NCBI GenBank assembly: GCA_014860805.1 | Contig: JACZJB010000140.1 | Location: 1 to 64,000, forward strand | DNA: 64,000 nt | Direction of reading: 5' to 3' | From: Anaerolineales bacterium | Lineage (GTDB): Bacteria > Chloroflexota > Anaerolineae > Anaerolineales > Villigracilaceae | Shown: positions 43,641-50,635 of the stretch, piece by piece | Layout of the letters: every line of letters starts with the position of its first letter | Numbering within the stretch: position 1 is the first letter of the stretch | The notes under the pieces: model-generated | What the model saw: only the letters and a program-made list of their open reading frames with translations | Database searches by the model: none | Told to the model about the DNA's origin: nothing | Program-made: the position numbers and the translations under genes

Positions 43641-44456
43641 CTACGGAATTTCGCCTGCGATTTCCTTGTCGATCAACTGCTGGAAGCTGGAAAGCGGCTG
43701 AGCACCGACAATTGCCAGACCATTGATGAAGAATGTGGGAGTGGATTGAATTCCAAGGTCCAGGGCAAAATTCATATCCTGCTGAATAAACTCATCGTGC
43801 TTGCCGCTGGAAAGGCAGGCAGTAAATTCACCCACATTCAAATTGAGGTCGGTGGCATATTGAATAAAAGTTGCTTGATCCAACACTTCACTGCTGAACA
43901 ACTTTTCGTGATAATCCCAATAGGCGTTTTGGTCGTTCGCACAAAGCGATGCAACAGCAGAAGGCATTGCATCCGGGTGAATGGACGTGAGCGGCAGGTT
44001 GCGATAAACGAAACGAATCTGATTCGGATACGCATCCAACAAGGCTTGATACGTCTCATCGTGGAAGCGGCGGCAGAAAGGGCACTGGAAGTCGCTGAAC
44101 TCCACAATGGTGATGGGGGCATCTTCCGGTCCAATGCTTGGATAACCTTCGGTGGGAATATCGTAGCGGACAAATTTCGGCTGTGCGGTCGGCGCTTCGA
44201 CAACATCGCCTGACGGCTGCTGCGCGGCTGCCGCTTGAGCAGGAACCGCCGCTGCGGCAGTGGTCCCGCGTCCCCAAAGCACATACCCGACGAGAATGCC
44301 GACCCCAAAGGCCAGCACAACAAGCACGGAATAAAAATGGCTGCGTTTGAAAGTGATGAATTCTTCAGCATCCGGGGCTGTTATTTGTTCTTCTTCAACA
44401 AGAATGGGAATGGATCCCTTTTCAACAGATGTGGATTTTTTAGTTTTTGTAGGCAT
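43641..44456 (-). CDS. Membrane-anchored DsbA-family thioredoxin-like protein
   Basis: A 271-residue protein with a cytoplasmic tail (about 1-40), one membrane helix (about 42-62) and an extracytoplasmic thioredoxin fold with helical insertion, of the DsbA/BdbD/Thioredoxin_4 type. The active site is FSDFQCPFCRRFH (C-P-F-C) and the cis-Pro loop is IQSTPTFFINGLAI. It is expected to oxidise or isomerise exported thiols. Two extra Cys (SLCANDQ and FTACLSS) could pair. It is the edge of a redox gene block continuing to 50635. Confidence 0.9.
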   Translation of the reverse strand: MPTKTKKSTSVEKGSIPILVEEEQITAPDAEEFITFKRSHFYSVLVVLAFGVGILVGYVLWGRGTTAAAAVPAQAAAAQQPSGDVVEAPTAQPKFVRYDIPTEGYPSIGPEDAPITIVEFSDFQCPFCRRFHDETYQALLDAYPNQIRFVYRNLPLTSIHPDAMPSAVASLCANDQNAYWDYHEKLFSSEVLDQATFIQYATDLNLNVGEFTACLSSGKHDEFIQQDMNFALDLGIQSTPTFFINGLAIVGAQPLSSFQQLIDKEIAGEIP

Positions 44457-44838: not shown

Positions 44839-45519
44839 TTAAGGAGTATCCACTTTGGGCTGCGTCACTTTTTTGGGAGGCAAAGGCAGACCCCGGGCGC
44901 GGAGAGAAGCGAATGCCTTTTTAACGGCAGGGATTCGGATAGTCAGGAAGATCGCGAGGATCAACCCATAGATCAGTGGGCGGATGATATCGCCTGAAAG
45001 GGAAAAGAAATCGCCCTTTTTGCTCCATGCATAATGTAGAACTGCAAGCGGGGCGATGAAATAAACCACTTGGTGCAGACGCTTCCAGTTTTTGCCGAGG
45101 CGTTTTTTCCAAATATCAAAGGATGTGAACGCAAGCGGCATGAGCATGAGGAAGGTGAGCATGCCGACAACGATATATGGTTTTTGCAATACCGTCTGGA
45201 CGATGAGACTCCAGGCAAGGCCGTAATCCAGATCAACAAAAATGATGACGTGGATGGTGGCGTACATAAAGGCATACAAGCCGAGTGCGCGGCGGCGCTT
45301 GAGCGGCTCGCTCCATTTGAAGATGGTGTTGATGGGTGTGCACATCAGCGATAGCAAAAGCAAAGTGATGGCGTGCCGACCGGTCCGCTGCTCCAATTCC
45401 TGAATGGGGTTGATGGAGAATGTGCCTGTTATCAGCTCATAAAGAATCCACACCGCAGCCGACCAGGCATACAAGTGAATGGCAATTTGAAGAGGGGTAA
45501 AACGCGAGAGAAATTTCAT
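44839..45519 (-). CDS. msrQ: Haem-binding membrane subunit MsrQ (YedZ)
   Basis: A 226-residue six-helix protein of the ferric-reductase-like family. The haem-ligand His residues fit TGRHAITLLLLSLMCTP, YATIHVIIF and KRLHQVVYFIAPLAVLHYA. It passes electrons from the respiratory chain or flavin to the periplasmic molybdoenzyme MsrP, which reduces methionine sulfoxide in exported proteins. Its gene starts 4 nt after the msrP stop. Confidence 0.92.
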   Translation of the reverse strand: MKFLSRFTPLQIAIHLYAWSAAVWILYELITGTFSINPIQELEQRTGRHAITLLLLSLMCTPINTIFKWSEPLKRRRALGLYAFMYATIHVIIFVDLDYGLAWSLIVQTVLQKPYIVVGMLTFLMLMPLAFTSFDIWKKRLGKNWKRLHQVVYFIAPLAVLHYAWSKKGDFFSLSGDIIRPLIYGLILAIFLTIRIPAVKKAFASLRARGLPLPPKKVTQPKVDTP

Positions 45520-45523
45520 TGAT

Positions 45524-46480
45524 TTAATAGTTCAGGCTCAAATCCATGCCGTCATACAGGCTGGCAACTTGTTCACCATAGCCGTTGAAAGGAAGTGTGC
45601 CTCTGCGGCTGATCTCGCCAATGCGGCGTTCGGTGGCTTGCGACCAGCGCGGATGATCCACACCGGGGTTGACGTTGGCATAGAAGCCATATTCGCTGGG
45701 AGCGACTGTGCTCCATAAAGTTTGCGGTTCTTCGGCAACCAATTCGATTTTGACAATGGATTTGATGGATTTGAAGCCATATTTCCACGGCACCACGAGA
45801 CGAATGGGAGCGCCGTTTTGCGCAAGGATATCTTCCCCATAAATACCAGTTGCAAGGAGGGTCAGGTCATTCATGGCTTCGTCCAGGCGCAGACCTTCCT
45901 GATATGGCCAAGGATAGAACGGGCTGCCCTGTCCCTTCATTTCTTCAGGGCGATAGATGGTTTCAAAACGCACATACTTTGCGTCTGAAGTCGGCTCAAC
46001 CATCTTGAGCAAGCTGGCAAGCGGGAAGCCATTCCACGGAATGACCATGCTCCAGGCTTCCACACAGCGCAGGCGATAAATACGCTCTTCCTGGGGGAAC
46101 ATGCTCAGCAGGTCTTCCACACCAAAAGTCTTTGGCTTGCTGACAAAACCGCTCACTTCCACAGTCCACGGAGCGGTGGTGAACCCTTTGGCGAGGCCGG
46201 CCACGGCTTCCTTGTTGGTGCTGAATTCATAGTAATTGTTGTAGTTGGCTATTTCTTCAAAGGAGTTGGCAGGGTCGCCGCGTTCATCGGTCTTGCCAGG
46301 TCCTGCATCCGCCGCAAGGGACTCGGGAGTCATATCAGCAGCATTGGGGGCACAAGCGGCAAGCGCCATGCTGCCCGCAACAACTCCTGCAGCTTTGATA
46401 AAGTCACGTCGTGAAAGGTAGGTTTCCTTCGGCGTGATCTCAGATGAACGAACGGGCACGGATTTGAAGGGATTACTCAT
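45524..46480 (-). CDS. msrP: Protein-methionine-sulfoxide reductase catalytic subunit MsrP (YedY)
   Basis: A 318-residue molybdopterin enzyme exported by the Tat route: [21 protein letters not shown] near residue 24 combines a twin-arginine signal with a possible lipobox Cys. The molybdenum-ligand Cys is in [17 protein letters not shown], followed by [11 protein letters not shown] and the long [18 protein letters not shown], all typical of YedY. It repairs oxidised Met in periplasmic proteins. It forms a unit with msrQ (4 nt) and the TlpA-like gene (20 nt upstream). Confidence 0.95.
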
Positions 46481-46500: not shown

Positions 46501-47055
46501 TTATGGGTAGGTCTCTGCCAGAAGGCTTTGGATTGCAGTTTCAGTTTCATTGTATCTTCCTTCGCCAATGTGGACGTAGCGAAGGTGTCCATTCTTGTCG
46601 ATCAAATAAAGCGTGGGCCAATAACGGTTTTTGTAGGCGCGCCAGGTGGCGCCGTCATTATCCTGCGCAACGGGATATTCTATTTCATACTTCGAAACCG
46701 CAGCCTGAAGATTTGTCAGGTCTTCTTCAAAAGAAAATTCAGGGTAATGGTTGCCGATGATGACAAGTCCTTCAGGGCTGTATTTGGCATGCCATTCCTT
46801 GAGAGAAGGCATCACGTTCTGACAGTTATAGCAGCCAAACGTCCACATCTCAAGCGCCACTACCTTTCCACGCAGGTCCGCAAGGCGCAGCGGAGCCGCC
46901 TGCGAGACATTCAGCCAGGTATCATTTGTCAGTTCGGGAGCAGGACCGAGGTCCGGCAGGGAAGCGTCAAAAGTCGGCATAACGGGTGCGGAATTTTCAG
47001 ATAGGGTGGTGCAGGCGGTCAAAAAAAATAACAATCCAAACAACATTTTTTTCAT
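46501..47055 (-). CDS. TlpA-like thioredoxin-fold lipoprotein
   Basis: A 184-residue exported protein with signal peptide [15 protein letters not shown] (Cys15 lipidated). The thioredoxin fold starts near residue 50; the active site is [16 protein letters not shown] (C-Y-N-C) and the cis-Pro loop [11 protein letters not shown]. It resembles redoxin/TlpA proteins that reduce apocytochrome or other envelope thiols. It is the first gene of the unit containing msrP and msrQ, so a role in returning electrons to oxidised envelope proteins is likely but inferred. Confidence 0.85.
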
Positions 47056-47215
47056 ATTTCACCTTTACCGCTGGTTGCACATTTGCCAAAACCTGCTGGT
47101 AGAACCTACATGTAAAAGCATAATTCTGGTTTTGCCAGTCAGGCGGCACATGTTACGATGAGGTGATTTTAGAAAAACTTTCTTACAAAAAGATTACGTG
47201 AGAGTGAGAGTTTTG

Positions 47216-48442
47216 TTAGGGAATATTAAATGTAAATCGGCTTCCCCGCCCTGCTGCGCTTTCAACGTACAGTTCACCGCCGTGTGCCTGCACGATCCCA
47301 TGTGAAATGGCCAATCCAAGCCCTGCCCCGCCTGTGTTGCGGCTGCGGGATTTTTCACCGCGATAAAAACTTTCAAAGACATGCGGAAGGTCCTCGCTGC
47401 GGATTCCTTCGCCTGTATCAGAAACGCTCACTTCCACGCCCGCGCCTGTTCGCCGCGCATGGACTTTTACCTCCCCTTGACTCGGCGTATGCCGAATCGC
47501 ATTGCCGATGAGATTGTTAAGCACACGCCCAATGCGCTGGGTATCCATGCTGACAGGGTCAACCCCTGCTTCCACGCTGCCTTCAAGTTTCACTCCCTGG
47601 CGAGCTGCCAGTTCGGAAAAAGATTCAAGCGTATCAGAGATCAGGTCTGCAAGGGATGACTTTGCGCGATCCAATGGAATGCCGCCGGCGCTCAACTGCG
47701 CCATTTGGAAGAGATCATCTATCAGGGCGGAAAGCGAACGTACATCGCGCTGGGCGGTGTTCAAATATCGTTTGATCGTCTGCGGGTCTTCCACTAAATC
47801 ATCTTCAAGCGCTTCCAGAATAGCGCGGATGGAAGCGAGGGGTGTTTGCAGGTCATGTCCCACCCATGCGATCAATTCTGTTCGCAATTTCTCCAGTTCG
47901 CGTTGTTTGGCGTCAACGGCTTCAAGCTGCTCCGCCATCTGGTTGAAGGTATGTGCCAGCATGGAGACTTCATCACGTCCCTGCACAGCGACACGCGTTT
48001 TCAAATCTCCCTCTGCGAGCTTTTCAGCCGCATCCTTTAACTGATGAACGCGGTCCGTAATAGTGCTCGAAAGAAAATACCCCAACACCATTGCCATGCC
48101 GCTCGCAAAGACAAGCAAAACGATCGCAAGCAGCAGGTCATGCTGGCTGGCAAACATCATCTGCGCGGAGAACCAAATATTAAAAAAAGTTAGCAGGCTT
48201 GATAGAGCGTACCCGCCCAGCAAAGACCAGCGCAACGTCGGCGAAAGAGACAGCCAGCCAAAACGATACGCAATATACCCCGCAAGCGCGGATACAAATG
48301 CGGTAATCCCCAGGAACAACGCCATCAACCCCAACTCGTATAAAGGCGGCGCCATCATCATATTGAAGATGGCGAGAGAGATCAAAAAGATCAGCAGGAT
48401 GCCAAAAACAAAACGGGCGACCAATGTAACTGGTGATCTCAT
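47216..48442 (-). CDS. Sensor histidine kinase
   Basis: A 408-residue kinase with about four membrane helices in residues 8-130 and almost no periplasmic loop, so the signal is probably membrane-borne. A HAMP segment follows (about 128-182), then HisKA with phospho-acceptor WVGHDLQTPLASIRA, N-box NNLIGNAIRHT, and G-boxes DTGEGI and GAGLGLAIS. It overlaps the response-regulator stop by 4 nt. The neighbours on both sides are thiol redox genes, making redox or envelope stress a reasonable signal; this is inference. Confidence 0.93.
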   Translation of the reverse strand: MRSPVTLVARFVFGILLIFLISLAIFNMMMAPPLYELGLMALFLGITAFVSALAGYIAYRFGWLSLSPTLRWSLLGGYALSSLLTFFNIWFSAQMMFASQHDLLLAIVLLVFASGMAMVLGYFLSSTITDRVHQLKDAAEKLAEGDLKTRVAVQGRDEVSMLAHTFNQMAEQLEAVDAKQRELEKLRTELIAWVGHDLQTPLASIRAILEALEDDLVEDPQTIKRYLNTAQRDVRSLSALIDDLFQMAQLSAGGIPLDRAKSSLADLISDTLESFSELAARQGVKLEGSVEAGVDPVSMDTQRIGRVLNNLIGNAIRHTPSQGEVKVHARRTGAGVEVSVSDTGEGIRSEDLPHVFESFYRGEKSRSRNTGGAGLGLAISHGIVQAHGGELYVESAAGRGSRFTFNIP

Positions 48443-49131
48443 GGCTCGAATTTATACCCAACACCCCAGACTGTCAGCAGATGTTTCGGCGAAGACGGGT
48501 CGCTCTCGATCTTTTCACGCAAACGACGCACATGCACTGTAACAGTTCCAGGGTCAATATATTCCGCGCCGCCCCACACCCGCTCTAGCAATTGGTCGCG
48601 TGTAAAAACCTGTTTAGGGTGACGCGCCAGAAGATACAACATGTCGAACTCTTTCGCAGTCAATTCGATGTGCGCCTCGCGCACCAGCACAACACGAGTG
48701 AGTGGATTGATCGTAATGGAATCATACGACAATACCCGCTCAGACTCCGCCCCAGCCTGATCCCGTCCAGTGCGCCTTAACATCGCCCGAACACGGCTCA
48801 CCAATTCCTGCGGACTGAACGGCTTGACCACATAATCATCCGCACCCATTTCAAGGCCGGCAATGCGGTCAATCTCTTCGCGGCGGGCAGTCACCATAAT
48901 GATCGGAACATCCGAATGGTCTCGCAGCCAGCGGGTTAAAGAAAGCCCGTCCACCTCAGGCAGCATCAAATCGAGAATCACAAAATCCGGTATTTGCTTT
49001 TCCAGGATATTCATCGCTTGTTTACCGTCCGAAGCAATTTGCACCTGAAAGCCCGCACGCTTTAAGTAGAGGCTTACCACCTCCGCAAGGCTCGGCTCGT
49101 CCTCCACCACAAGGATGCATTTTTCGCTCAT
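48439..49131 (-). CDS. OmpR/PhoB-family response regulator
   Basis: A 230-residue regulator with receiver domain (VVEDEPS, phospho-acceptor Asp54 in VILDLMLPEVDG, Thr in VPIIMVTARREE, Lys in YVVKPF) and a C-terminal winged helix with TAKEFDMLYLLARHPKQVFTR and VHVRRLREKI. The start at ATG 49131 is preferred, since a TATGAT -10 box lies 7 nt upstream; the frame could start four codons earlier. It probably controls redox genes nearby: the promoter region faces the divergent thioredoxin-like lipoprotein gene. Confidence 0.93.
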   Translation of the reverse strand: MSEKCILVVEDEPSLAEVVSLYLKRAGFQVQIASDGKQAMNILEKQIPDFVILDLMLPEVDGLSLTRWLRDHSDVPIIMVTARREEIDRIAGLEMGADDYVVKPFSPQELVSRVRAMLRRTGRDQAGAESERVLSYDSITINPLTRVVLVREAHIELTAKEFDMLYLLARHPKQVFTRDQLLERVWGGAEYIDPGTVTVHVRRLREKIESDPSSPKHLLTVWGVGYKFEP

Positions 49132-49138
49132 AGGCGAA

Positions 49139-49144
49139 ATCATA
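49139..49144 (-). promoter_or_regulatory. -10 box (TATGAT) just before response regulator
   Basis: TATGAT on the minus strand ends 7 nt before ATG 49131, again predicting a leaderless or nearly leaderless message. The -35 is weak, in keeping with an activator-dependent promoter. Confidence 0.45.
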
Positions 49145-49275
49145 CTTGATTAATGGCAGAAAGTTATTAATAAATCCTTACGAACTTCAGAAGAATTCAT
49201 ACTCTTGTAATAAATGGACAGGAGATTTGTAAGAAGATCTTTGTATTATCAGACATCATAAAACACAGGAGCCTC

Positions 49276-49914
49276 ATGAAAACAAAACACATTCTTTTCA
49301 GACTGATCGTATTAACCGCATTTCTCATCGCAGCTTGCGGCGGGAATCCCACAACAAAAGCGATGATGGAAAGCACACCAAACGCGATGATGTCCCACGA
49401 AACCCCAACGGCAGATGCCATGATGCCAAAGGAGACCCCATCCACAGAGTCCATGATGGAAAGCCCGGCATGGTTTGGCATGTCACTGACCAATGCCCAT
49501 ACTGGCGAATCGTTCACCATTCAAGACTTCAAAGGCAAAGTAATTCTAGTAGAGACTATGGCGGTCTGGTGCTCGAATTGCCTCAAACAACAGACACAGG
49601 TAAAGGTCCTGCATGGTCTGGTGGGCAACCGTGATGATTTTGTCAGCCTCGGACTGGATATTGATCCCAATGAAGATGTCTCCAAGCTAAAGAGTTTTAT
49701 TGAAGGGCAAGGCTTTGATTGGCTGTATTCCATTTCCCCGGCGGACGTCTCACGCGAGATTGCTTCACTGTATGGAGATCAATTTCTCAATCCACCTTCC
49801 ACTCCCATGTTGGTAATCGACAAACACGGTGTCGCTCATCCCCTGCCATTCGGCATTAAAAGCGCCGAAGAACTGCTACAAGCCATTCAACCATTTTTGG
49901 ATGAAAGCATCTAA
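49276..49914 (+). CDS. Thioredoxin-like lipoprotein with Met-rich linker
   Basis: A 212-residue lipoprotein: signal MKTKHILFRLIVLTAFLIAAC, Cys21 predicted lipidated. Residues 26-60 form an unusual Met-rich linker with four MM pairs set in Thr/Pro/Glu (MMESTPNAMM, then DAMMPKETP and ESMME). The thioredoxin-fold domain follows with active site MAVWCSNCLKQQ (C-S-N-C) and cis-Pro STPMLVI. Met pairs might bind Cu(I) or be repaired by MsrP; both are inference. The gene is divergent from the two-component system and 50 nt upstream of the CcdA gene, so it is probably a CcdA-dependent reductase. Confidence 0.85.
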   Translation: MKTKHILFRLIVLTAFLIAACGGNPTTKAMMESTPNAMMSHETPTADAMMPKETPSTESMMESPAWFGMSLTNAHTGESFTIQDFKGKVILVETMAVWCSNCLKQQTQVKVLHGLVGNRDDFVSLGLDIDPNEDVSKLKSFIEGQGFDWLYSISPADVSREIASLYGDQFLNPPSTPMLVIDKHGVAHPLPFGIKSAEELLQAIQPFLDESI

Positions 49915-49963: not shown

Positions 49964-50635
49964 ATGGAAACAATCCTCACATCCATATCCCTCGGCCTAC
50001 TCGCAACCACCAGCCCCTGCGTCCTGCCATTGTATCCGGGCTTTCTCGCCTACCTTAGCAGCGGACAGGAAAGTTTACAAGGAAAACCCGGTCGCTATCT
50101 GCTTGGCTTCTTTGTACTGGCAGGCGTCCTTACCATGATGCTCGCGTTGGGAGGAATCATTGCCCTGCTCTCGGTATCAGTTGGTACAGCATTGGCCTTT
50201 GTAATCCCCATAGCAGACCTGATCATCATTTTGTTTGGAATTTTATTACTGCTGAACATCAACCCCTTCAAGAAATTACCGCAAATCCAGGTTCCGTTAT
50301 TGTCGCATCCTTTTGCGAACGCCTTCGTCTACGGGCTGCTATACGGACCTATCGCCCTGCCTTGCTCAGGCCCATTGGTTGTCAGCATTTTCGCCTTATC
50401 TCTTACCGTTGGTGATGCACTTGGAAAACTGAACATTTTCCTTTGGTTCGGACTGGGGTTTGGCATTCCACTATTATTATTGTCTTTTCTTTCAGGCGTC
50501 GCGCAGCGTTGGATCACACGTCAATTCGCGCAACGGGCACGCTTGATCAATTTAATAAGCGGATTATTGCTATTAGGAATTGGGATATATGACCTGACGG
50601 TCAACTGGCCGCTCATCAGTTCCTACCTTACTTAA
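49964..50635 (+). CDS. ccdA: CcdA/DsbD-type thiol electron transporter
   Basis: A 223-residue polytopic protein with six predicted helices. The two transmembrane Cys lie in TSPCVLPLYPG and ALPCSGP, the conserved pair that carries reducing power from cytoplasmic thioredoxin to envelope thiol proteins. Length is normal for CcdA. It follows the Met-rich thioredoxin-like lipoprotein, its likely acceptor; the C-Y-N-C protein and DsbA-like protein are further candidates. Confidence 0.92.
   Translation: METILTSISLGLLATTSPCVLPLYPGFLAYLSSGQESLQGKPGRYLLGFFVLAGVLTMMLALGGIIALLSVSVGTALAFVIPIADLIIILFGILLLLNINPFKKLPQIQVPLLSHPFANAFVYGLLYGPIALPCSGPLVVSIFALSLTVGDALGKLNIFLWFGLGFGIPLLLLSFLSGVAQRWITRQFAQRARLINLISGLLLLGIGIYDLTVNWPLISSYLT

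Follow-up and report, generated by a model that had tools for sequence, protein, structure and literature searches.

Why should a membrane-anchored thioredoxin carry a disordered tether crowded with methionine pairs, and why should its gene lie beside those of a methionine sulfoxide repair system? One locus raises this question in the window analyzed here, a 64,000-nucleotide stretch from an Anaerolineales bacterium of the phylum Chloroflexota (contig JACZJB010000140.1 of assembly GCA_014860805.1, positions 1 to 64,000 of the forward strand). We propose that the tether is an oxidant sink rechargeable by MsrPQ and built into a lipoprotein thioredoxin, a reading to which we assign a probability of roughly 55%. 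We consider a rechargeable oxidant sponge probable because such tethers turn up repeatedly in the phylum and almost all of the genomes concerned encode MsrP.

The gene (49276–49914, plus strand, as are all features within it) encodes a 212-residue lipoprotein with a TlpA/ResA-like thioredoxin fold, as indicated by a Pfam Redoxin match (4.3e-7) and by matches to thioredoxin-family structures. Its signal peptide ends in the lipobox LIAAC (49276–49338), whose Cys21 is invariant in 14 aligned sequences, and is followed by a 43-residue Met-rich tether with 8 Met (residues 22–64, 49339–49467). Four MM pairs, in the contexts KAMME (residues 30–31, 49363–49368), NAMMS (residues 38–39, 49387–49392), DAMMP (residues 49–50, 49420–49425) and ESMME (residues 60–61, 49453–49458), span 32 residues from first to last. 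The active site WCSNC lies at residues 98–102 (49567–49581), with W98, C99, S100 and C102 invariant in 14 aligned sequences, so that the arrangement described in an earlier note on this DNA, four MM pairs between a lipid anchor and a C-S-N-C domain, is borne out. AlphaFold predicts the tether to be disordered and the thioredoxin domain ordered, with pLDDT below 50 at residues 22–43 and 45–60 and about 80–95 in the domain. The solved structures closest in both sequence and fold are thioredoxin-family reductases, with 3kcm at the top and TlpA and ResA also matched; 4hqs, another match, is an Etrx. TlpA/ResA is likewise the domain's best curated family, at scores far under the NCBIfam cut-offs (28.9 of 230 bits for TlpA, 18.5 of 170 for ResA), and accounts for several of its fold matches. 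The protein shares with TlpA and ResA a thioredoxin-like fold, a WCxxC site and a membrane anchor (here read by eye from the lipobox), and unlike them carries a Met-rich tether.

Methionine is in clear excess in this linker (8 Met in 42 residues; binomial p = 8e-6 for an assumed 2.5% Met), and four or more MM pairs arise in 122 of 200,000 shuffles of it. A pattern of three spaced ATGATG words matches five times in the window's genome, twice at the tether and three times in places that, by eye, are not such linkers; among ten relatives, matches of Thr/Pro/Glu type fall at the thioredoxin gene in 8 genomes, again as judged by eye. The relatives' remaining matches are, by eye, Gly/Met-rich stretches, other reading frames or, in two genomes, a different Met-rich protein. 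The Gly/Met-rich repeats (MMGGNGGMMG type; G009:C47, two near-identical places in G031:C1, G027:C25 and G071:C81) probably belong to other proteins and are perhaps copper-related, and the different protein has MM..TPGSMM..NPEAAHMM stretches (G028:C30:2464 and G009:C80:63687).

The genes around the thioredoxin form two divergent operons separated by a 132-bp gap. On the plus strand the thioredoxin is followed by CcdA, a membrane thiol-electron transporter (49964–50635; DsbD_TM 6.5e-9, passing the Pfam cut-off). On the minus strand lie an OmpR/PhoB-type response regulator (48439–49143) and a HAMP-HisKA-HATPase histidine kinase (47216–48442), both passing Pfam cut-offs, then a ResA-like lipoprotein with the site CYNC (46501–47055, from profile matches), MsrP, the molybdopterin subunit and periplasmic methionine sulfoxide reductase (45524–46480; NF003767, 456.7 bits against a cut-off of 207), and MsrQ, the haem membrane subunit (44839–45519; NF003831, 177.7 bits against 130). 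These NCBIfam and Pfam assignments confirm the MsrP/MsrQ, CcdA and two-component neighbors named in the earlier note, from which the ResA-like lipoprotein between MsrP and the kinase was absent. A DsbA-like membrane-anchored thioredoxin (43641–44456, minus strand) adjoins MsrQ and occupies the same place in many relatives, not all.

At E ≤ 1e-12, 49 of 396 genomes sampled from the class have a homologue of the thioredoxin, as do 22 of 400 sampled from the phylum, of which 7 are members of the class. Homologues also come from 15 of 61 near relatives (E ≤ 1e-8) and from 14 named loci in a genome collection; lipoboxes and start codons in these relatives were set by simple rules. Because CcdA shares the stretch with the thioredoxin in 68 of 73 cases (some genomes sampled twice), gene order identifies this pair as the core of the cluster. 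MsrP joins the thioredoxin cluster in 18 distinct genomes, where 16 of the tethers are at least 10% Met. The other two are 9.6% (L054) and 1.7% (L092, in genome G048, where the tether next to MsrP has a single Met among 60 residues); the G048 cluster retains thioredoxin and MsrPQ, with no kinase or ResA match in the stretch. Elsewhere the surroundings differ: MsrP does not adjoin the thioredoxin in the stretches examined from family f49, the neighbors scanned at five loci (L058, L062, L066, L107 and L122) are unrelated, and three Met-free paralogues (L094, L096 and L111) adjoin sugar or transport genes. Pelolinea submarina has a milder version of the linker, with 6 Met in 48 residues.

What is conserved in the tether is its methionine density. 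Among 65 measurable linkers, 38 (the window's included) are at least 10% Met, 22 are below 5% and 5 fall between. Across the 38, the Met fraction averages 0.174 with a coefficient of variation of 0.19, the lowest of the common residues (Ala 0.31, Glu 0.43, Thr 0.48, Asp 0.57, Pro 0.73), a value that is partly so by construction because picking linkers at a Met fraction of at least 0.10 narrows the spread. Ile and Leu stand at 0.006 each, lengths range from 30 to 123 residues, and the 148 MM pairs compare with 70.5 in shuffles (largest shuffle 91). The background shifts from Thr/Pro/Glu in the window and its kin to Asp/Glu in family f49, and the MM pair is often reduced to a single Met per four or five residues; thus the sequences indicate that density is kept and exact pairs are not. 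A pattern written for acidic Met repeats matched none of 15 f49 genomes, several of which do have such linkers, so its zero reflects an overly strict pattern. In the four closest linker pairs, a subset chosen afterwards, Met is kept at 41 of 42 positions against 149 of 186 for other residues (p = 0.005), and in all ten pairs at 102 of 128 against 327 of 460 (p = 0.056). The condition that the earlier note named as refuting its idea, Met pairs varying freely in close homologues, therefore has a divided outcome: Met content is held among homologues, while the number, pairing and spacing of the methionines vary widely.

The methionines also stand in an acidic context. Asp or Glu lies within two residues of 443 of the 492 linker Met, against 66% in 2000 shuffles that kept Met runs together (largest 74%), and in the 16 less acidic linkers of 134 of 176, against 47% (largest shuffle 63%); these counts are not independent, as repeats copy their own context. 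For the MsrP of Rhodobacter, the available text of one paper credits to Tarrago and co-workers the finding that methionine sulfoxide next to Glu or Asp is reduced more efficiently (PMC7602125), and MsrP is elsewhere said to favor unfolded substrates (PMC12860648, in the part available). With its unfolded chain and acidic-flanked methionines, the tether looks like a preferred MsrP substrate.

Met-rich tethers and MsrP largely occur in the same genomes. MsrP is present in 201 of the 396 class genomes. Among the 44 thioredoxin genomes of the class with a measurable linker, it is found in 24 of 25 with at least 10% linker Met and in 6 of 19 below that (p = 6e-6), or in 25 of 29 against 5 of 15 at a 5% cut (p = 7e-4), p-values that ignore kinship, 15 of the 25 Met-rich genomes being of the single family f49. 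Similarly, 7 of the 13 genomes with less than 10% Met and no MsrP are family f34 or a mix thereof. Five of the 49 class genomes were left out for lack of a measurable linker or for a doubtful homologue (G244, G257, G259, G287 and G389); in G287, which has MsrP, the contig begins within a Met-rich linker. One genome counted as Met-poor, G406, has a mostly masked linker, and without it the comparison is 24 of 25 against 5 of 18. Sister pairs point in the same direction (mean 2.3 versus 0.1 of 5, at the 5% cut) and are too few for significance. Outside the class, where 15 genomes have the thioredoxin and MM tethers occur only in G757 and G504 of family f82, we predicted beforehand that these two would have MsrP and that most genomes with Met-free linkers (0 or 1 Met) would not. 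Both do have it; among the 12 Met-free genomes, 10 lack it and G519 and G696 have it. Class and outside genomes combined give 26 of 27 against 8 of 31, leaving out G507, which has 5% Met and MsrP.

Aerobic life does not explain this association, because the haem-copper oxidase subunit COX1, present in 278 of 396 class genomes, is found in 48 of the 49 with the thioredoxin, Met-poor ones included, which rules out the Met-rich tether as a mere mark of aerobic genomes. The lone exception, G098, is Met-rich and has MsrP. The thioredoxin as a whole does track the oxidase (48 of 49 genomes against 230 of the 347 others; p = 4e-7). Within the window's genus MsrP explains nothing, since it is present in 37 of 37 genomes of one survey; G169, sampled separately, is without it. 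A Met-free paralogue clade occurs in MsrP-bearing genomes (G002, G003, G014, G029 and G397, and as second copies in G009 and G027), and one genome, G101 (80% complete), has a Met-rich tether without MsrP. On these distributions the Met-rich tether seems to need MsrP, and MsrP does not need the tether. In G009 and G027 the copy at the MsrP locus is Met-rich and another, elsewhere in the genome, belongs to the Met-free clade, which offers a natural within-genome control.

The two operons also share candidate regulatory sites. In the divergent gap a TTTGTAAG box lies at 49226–49233 on the plus strand, with an imperfect TTGTAAT 22 bp upstream (about 49205–49211), and an inverted TTCGTAAG box matches the motif at 49177–49184 on the minus strand; a further TTTGTAAG box stands upstream of the ResA-like gene and MsrPQ (47182–47189, minus strand), with CGTAAT 11 bp further upstream. 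The consensus TTYGTAAK was derived from the thioredoxin side of the gap, so that the ResA side serves as an independent test, and, among 15 loci with the divergent regulator, it occurs in the roughly 170 bp before the thioredoxin gene at 13 and before the ResA-like gene at 14, where 0.026 is expected per 170 bp from the rest of those loci. These 15 are the 18 MsrP clusters without L092, L104 and L106, and as related loci they are not independent, which overstates the significance of the counts; across the whole 64-kb window the motif is not enriched (9 matches against 6.6 expected). Boxes on the thioredoxin side often come in pairs spaced by 22 bp, and the window's ResA side has two GTAA cores at an interval of 11 bp. 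Such helical spacing of 22 or 11 bp is typical of OmpR/PhoB-type sites. The two-component system thus probably controls both operons through the conserved boxes.

What the kinase itself might sense is suggested by its short loops. By eye it has four transmembrane segments and no large sensor domain, and in loops whose placement outside the membrane we infer, the Met of ..MxPP.. is conserved in 16 of 16 aligned kinases and the MF of ..MFxS.HDL.. in the 15 that reach that point. With this conserved loop Met (and the His-Asp beside it), the kinase (47216–48442, minus strand) is a candidate Met-based oxidant sensor. The idea in the earlier note that the linker acts as a sensor finds no specific support, and the kinase, with conserved Met in both short outer loops, is the likelier one.

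The ResA-like neighbor has an unexpected feature of its own, in that it looks like a selenoprotein in half of the clusters. It reads MWTFG-TGA-INC in 8 of 16 clusters, all from distinct genomes (L050, L051, L053, L056, L057, L091, L100 and L103), the in-frame TGA replacing the first Cys of CxxC, and has Cys in the remaining 8, which include the window's. In all 8 TGA genes a stem of 6–8 bp with a three-base loop (GUU in 7, AUU in L051) lies about 21 nt downstream, a hairpin that appears bSECIS-like; among the 8 Cys genes L054 and L055 retain the stem with a CUU loop, and in the others it is weakened or lost. Conservation rather than energy argues for this hairpin, because its fold is unexceptional against shuffles in most cases (z −0.3 to −3.7). 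SelB passes its cut-off in 15 of the 16 genomes tested. The TGA fits a selenocysteine in a thiol reductase tied to methionine repair. In G017 SelB is split over two frames and seems frameshifted (G017:C2:1971690-1973574) despite a TGA-bearing ResA-like gene, which may be a sequencing error. The thioredoxin family itself also has WUxxC (TGA) members, L071 (G092), L072 (G236) and L084 (G114); the linkers of these copies are Met-free, and their genomes give no match to MsrP.

Several known systems resemble parts of this locus. The closest in kind are the Met-rich periplasmic peptides MrpX and BcrX of Azospira and Brucella, proposed or reported sacrificial sinks encoded with MsrPQ (PMC8315932, in the text available). 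As there, a Met-rich low-complexity repeat lies outside the membrane and is genetically linked to MsrPQ, here by a shared cluster in 18 genomes; the difference is that MrpX/BcrX are peptides under an ECF sigma factor, whereas the window encodes a lipid-anchored thioredoxin tether beside a two-component system. The pentapeptide MXKDX family TIGR02953 (penta_MxKDx) is ruled out for the window protein, which, like L053 and L058, gives no match at E ≤ 5; L061 scores 18.6 bits, below the cut-off of 41. In the pneumococcal Etrx1-CcdA1-MsrAB2 pathway, too, a thioredoxin lipoprotein that CcdA reduces is coupled to the repair of methionine sulfoxide in the envelope (PMC3914529, in the part available), and the term "Methionine-rich" has no occurrence in that paper's main text. 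According to the available accounts, MsrAB takes thiol electrons from Etrx, whereas the MsrPQ of E. coli is quinol-fed (PMC8315932), so a thioredoxin-to-Msr electron step may not apply in the window, and CcdA and the thioredoxin would not be needed to recharge the tether. In the Fusobacterium msrAB-trx-ccdA-modRS locus, Msr, thioredoxin, CcdA and a two-component system again stand together and the regulator controls trx and ccdA; unlike the window, this locus has a fused MsrAB in place of MsrPQ, and the available text leaves a Met-rich tether unmentioned (PMC9239216).

The regulatory arrangement has its own counterpart in E. coli HprSR-MsrPQ, whose kinase HprS has a larger periplasmic domain. 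There too a two-component system adjoins msrPQ (PMC10151825; PMC9302797), and two Met of a periplasmic loop in HprS are reported in the accessible part of a review to sense HOCl (PMC10151825), in likeness to the loop Met of the window's kinase; unlike in the window, a thioredoxin lipoprotein and CcdA go unmentioned in the available text of these two papers. In the open-licence literature searched, as far as its text was available, we found no Met-rich tether on a thioredoxin itself together with MsrPQ.

Could the tether be an unconstrained low-complexity repeat, its length and Met content drifting by repeat expansion and its co-occurrence with MsrP reflecting lineage noise? Repeat number does vary from 2 to about 9 with some copies near identical, MM decays to a single M in distant families, Met conservation over the ten pairs falls short at p = 0.056, and the lineage-corrected MsrP test is not significant. 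Drift of this kind sits poorly with a Met fraction that stays constant over different units (TP-rich and DE-rich), with the near exclusion of Ile and Leu and the retained acidic context, with the same unit in a family outside the class (f82), and with the retention of Met in close linker pairs, and we regard it as improbable. Nor do we think it at all probable that the tether is a redox-controlled switch, in which Met oxidation would alter the linker's reach, charge or phase and so switch the thioredoxin or signal to the kinase. An accessory sensor is conceivable, given that the tether connects membrane and active domain and that the outer loops of the kinase are all short; against this, tether length and pairing vary three- to four-fold, and conserved Met already stands in the kinase's own loops, much as in HprS (review PMC10151825, in the part available).

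A third possibility is that the Met pairs bind Cu(I) on behalf of a TlpA-like domain, which would help in assembling or protecting cuproenzymes such as cytochrome oxidase, with MsrP keeping the Met reduced. We judge this unlikely and keep it in consideration because of the TlpA-like domain, the tracking of haem-copper oxidase noted above and the repair of copper proteins by MsrP, exemplified by the E. coli copper chaperone CusF (PMC9302797, in the text available). By their titles, solved structures pair TlpA with ScoI and with oxidase subunit II (4txo, 4txv), and an occasional His lies beside the Met pairs. The PcuC protein bears a disordered Met/His tail, which in the available account did not itself coordinate Cu (PMC12860648). 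The tether's composition speaks somewhat against copper, in that the Met are loosely spaced (mostly by 1 to 12) in place of a fixed MxM or MxxM, the Met context is acidic, and His makes up 1.4% of Met-rich linkers against 1.5% of the domain. Gene content does so too, since no copper gene was seen in the window's cluster or among 30 neighbors scanned at eight further loci, of which three are Met-free and five Met-rich or intermediate. A copper operon is thus unsupported by the neighbors scanned, among which a single one, at L058, matches an HlyD/CusB adaptor fold.

The oxidant sink proposed in the earlier note is supported by comparison, through the held Met content, the acidic context, the co-occurrence with MsrP and the shared boxes, and for its chemistry we infer the following course. 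Envelope oxidants (hypochlorous acid and its kin, and peroxide) would oxidize the exposed Met pairs of the tether first, ahead of membrane proteins. With electrons that MsrQ delivers from the quinone pool, MsrP would then reduce the resulting sulfoxides, and the tether would suit it well as a substrate, being disordered and having acidic residues next to most of its Met. In parallel, the WCSNC domain, fed by CcdA, would repair oxidized cysteines, perhaps together with the ResA-like lipoprotein. The four-segment kinase would sense the oxidant, a task for which its own loop Met may serve, and the response regulator would control both divergent operons through the TTYGTAAK boxes. At eight Met per lipoprotein, such a sink is small unless the protein is abundant.

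That surface methionines might form a renewable antioxidant buffer was proposed long ago and is hard to test, since Met is scattered in most proteins. The tether makes it directly testable, because its Met content seems fixed without a fixed sequence, the repair enzyme is present, and natural Met-free versions serve as controls. As a possible and still tentative generalization, Chloroflexota may have a repair-coupled antioxidant polymer, a low-complexity tether with about one Met in six, mostly acidic-flanked and so suited to MsrP. If this is true, one lipoprotein would combine a thiol reductase with a Met buffer that can be recharged, a single two-component system would govern it together with Met repair powered by quinol and Cys repair powered by CcdA, and the locus would show how the cell envelope is defended against oxidants in a large and poorly studied phylum.
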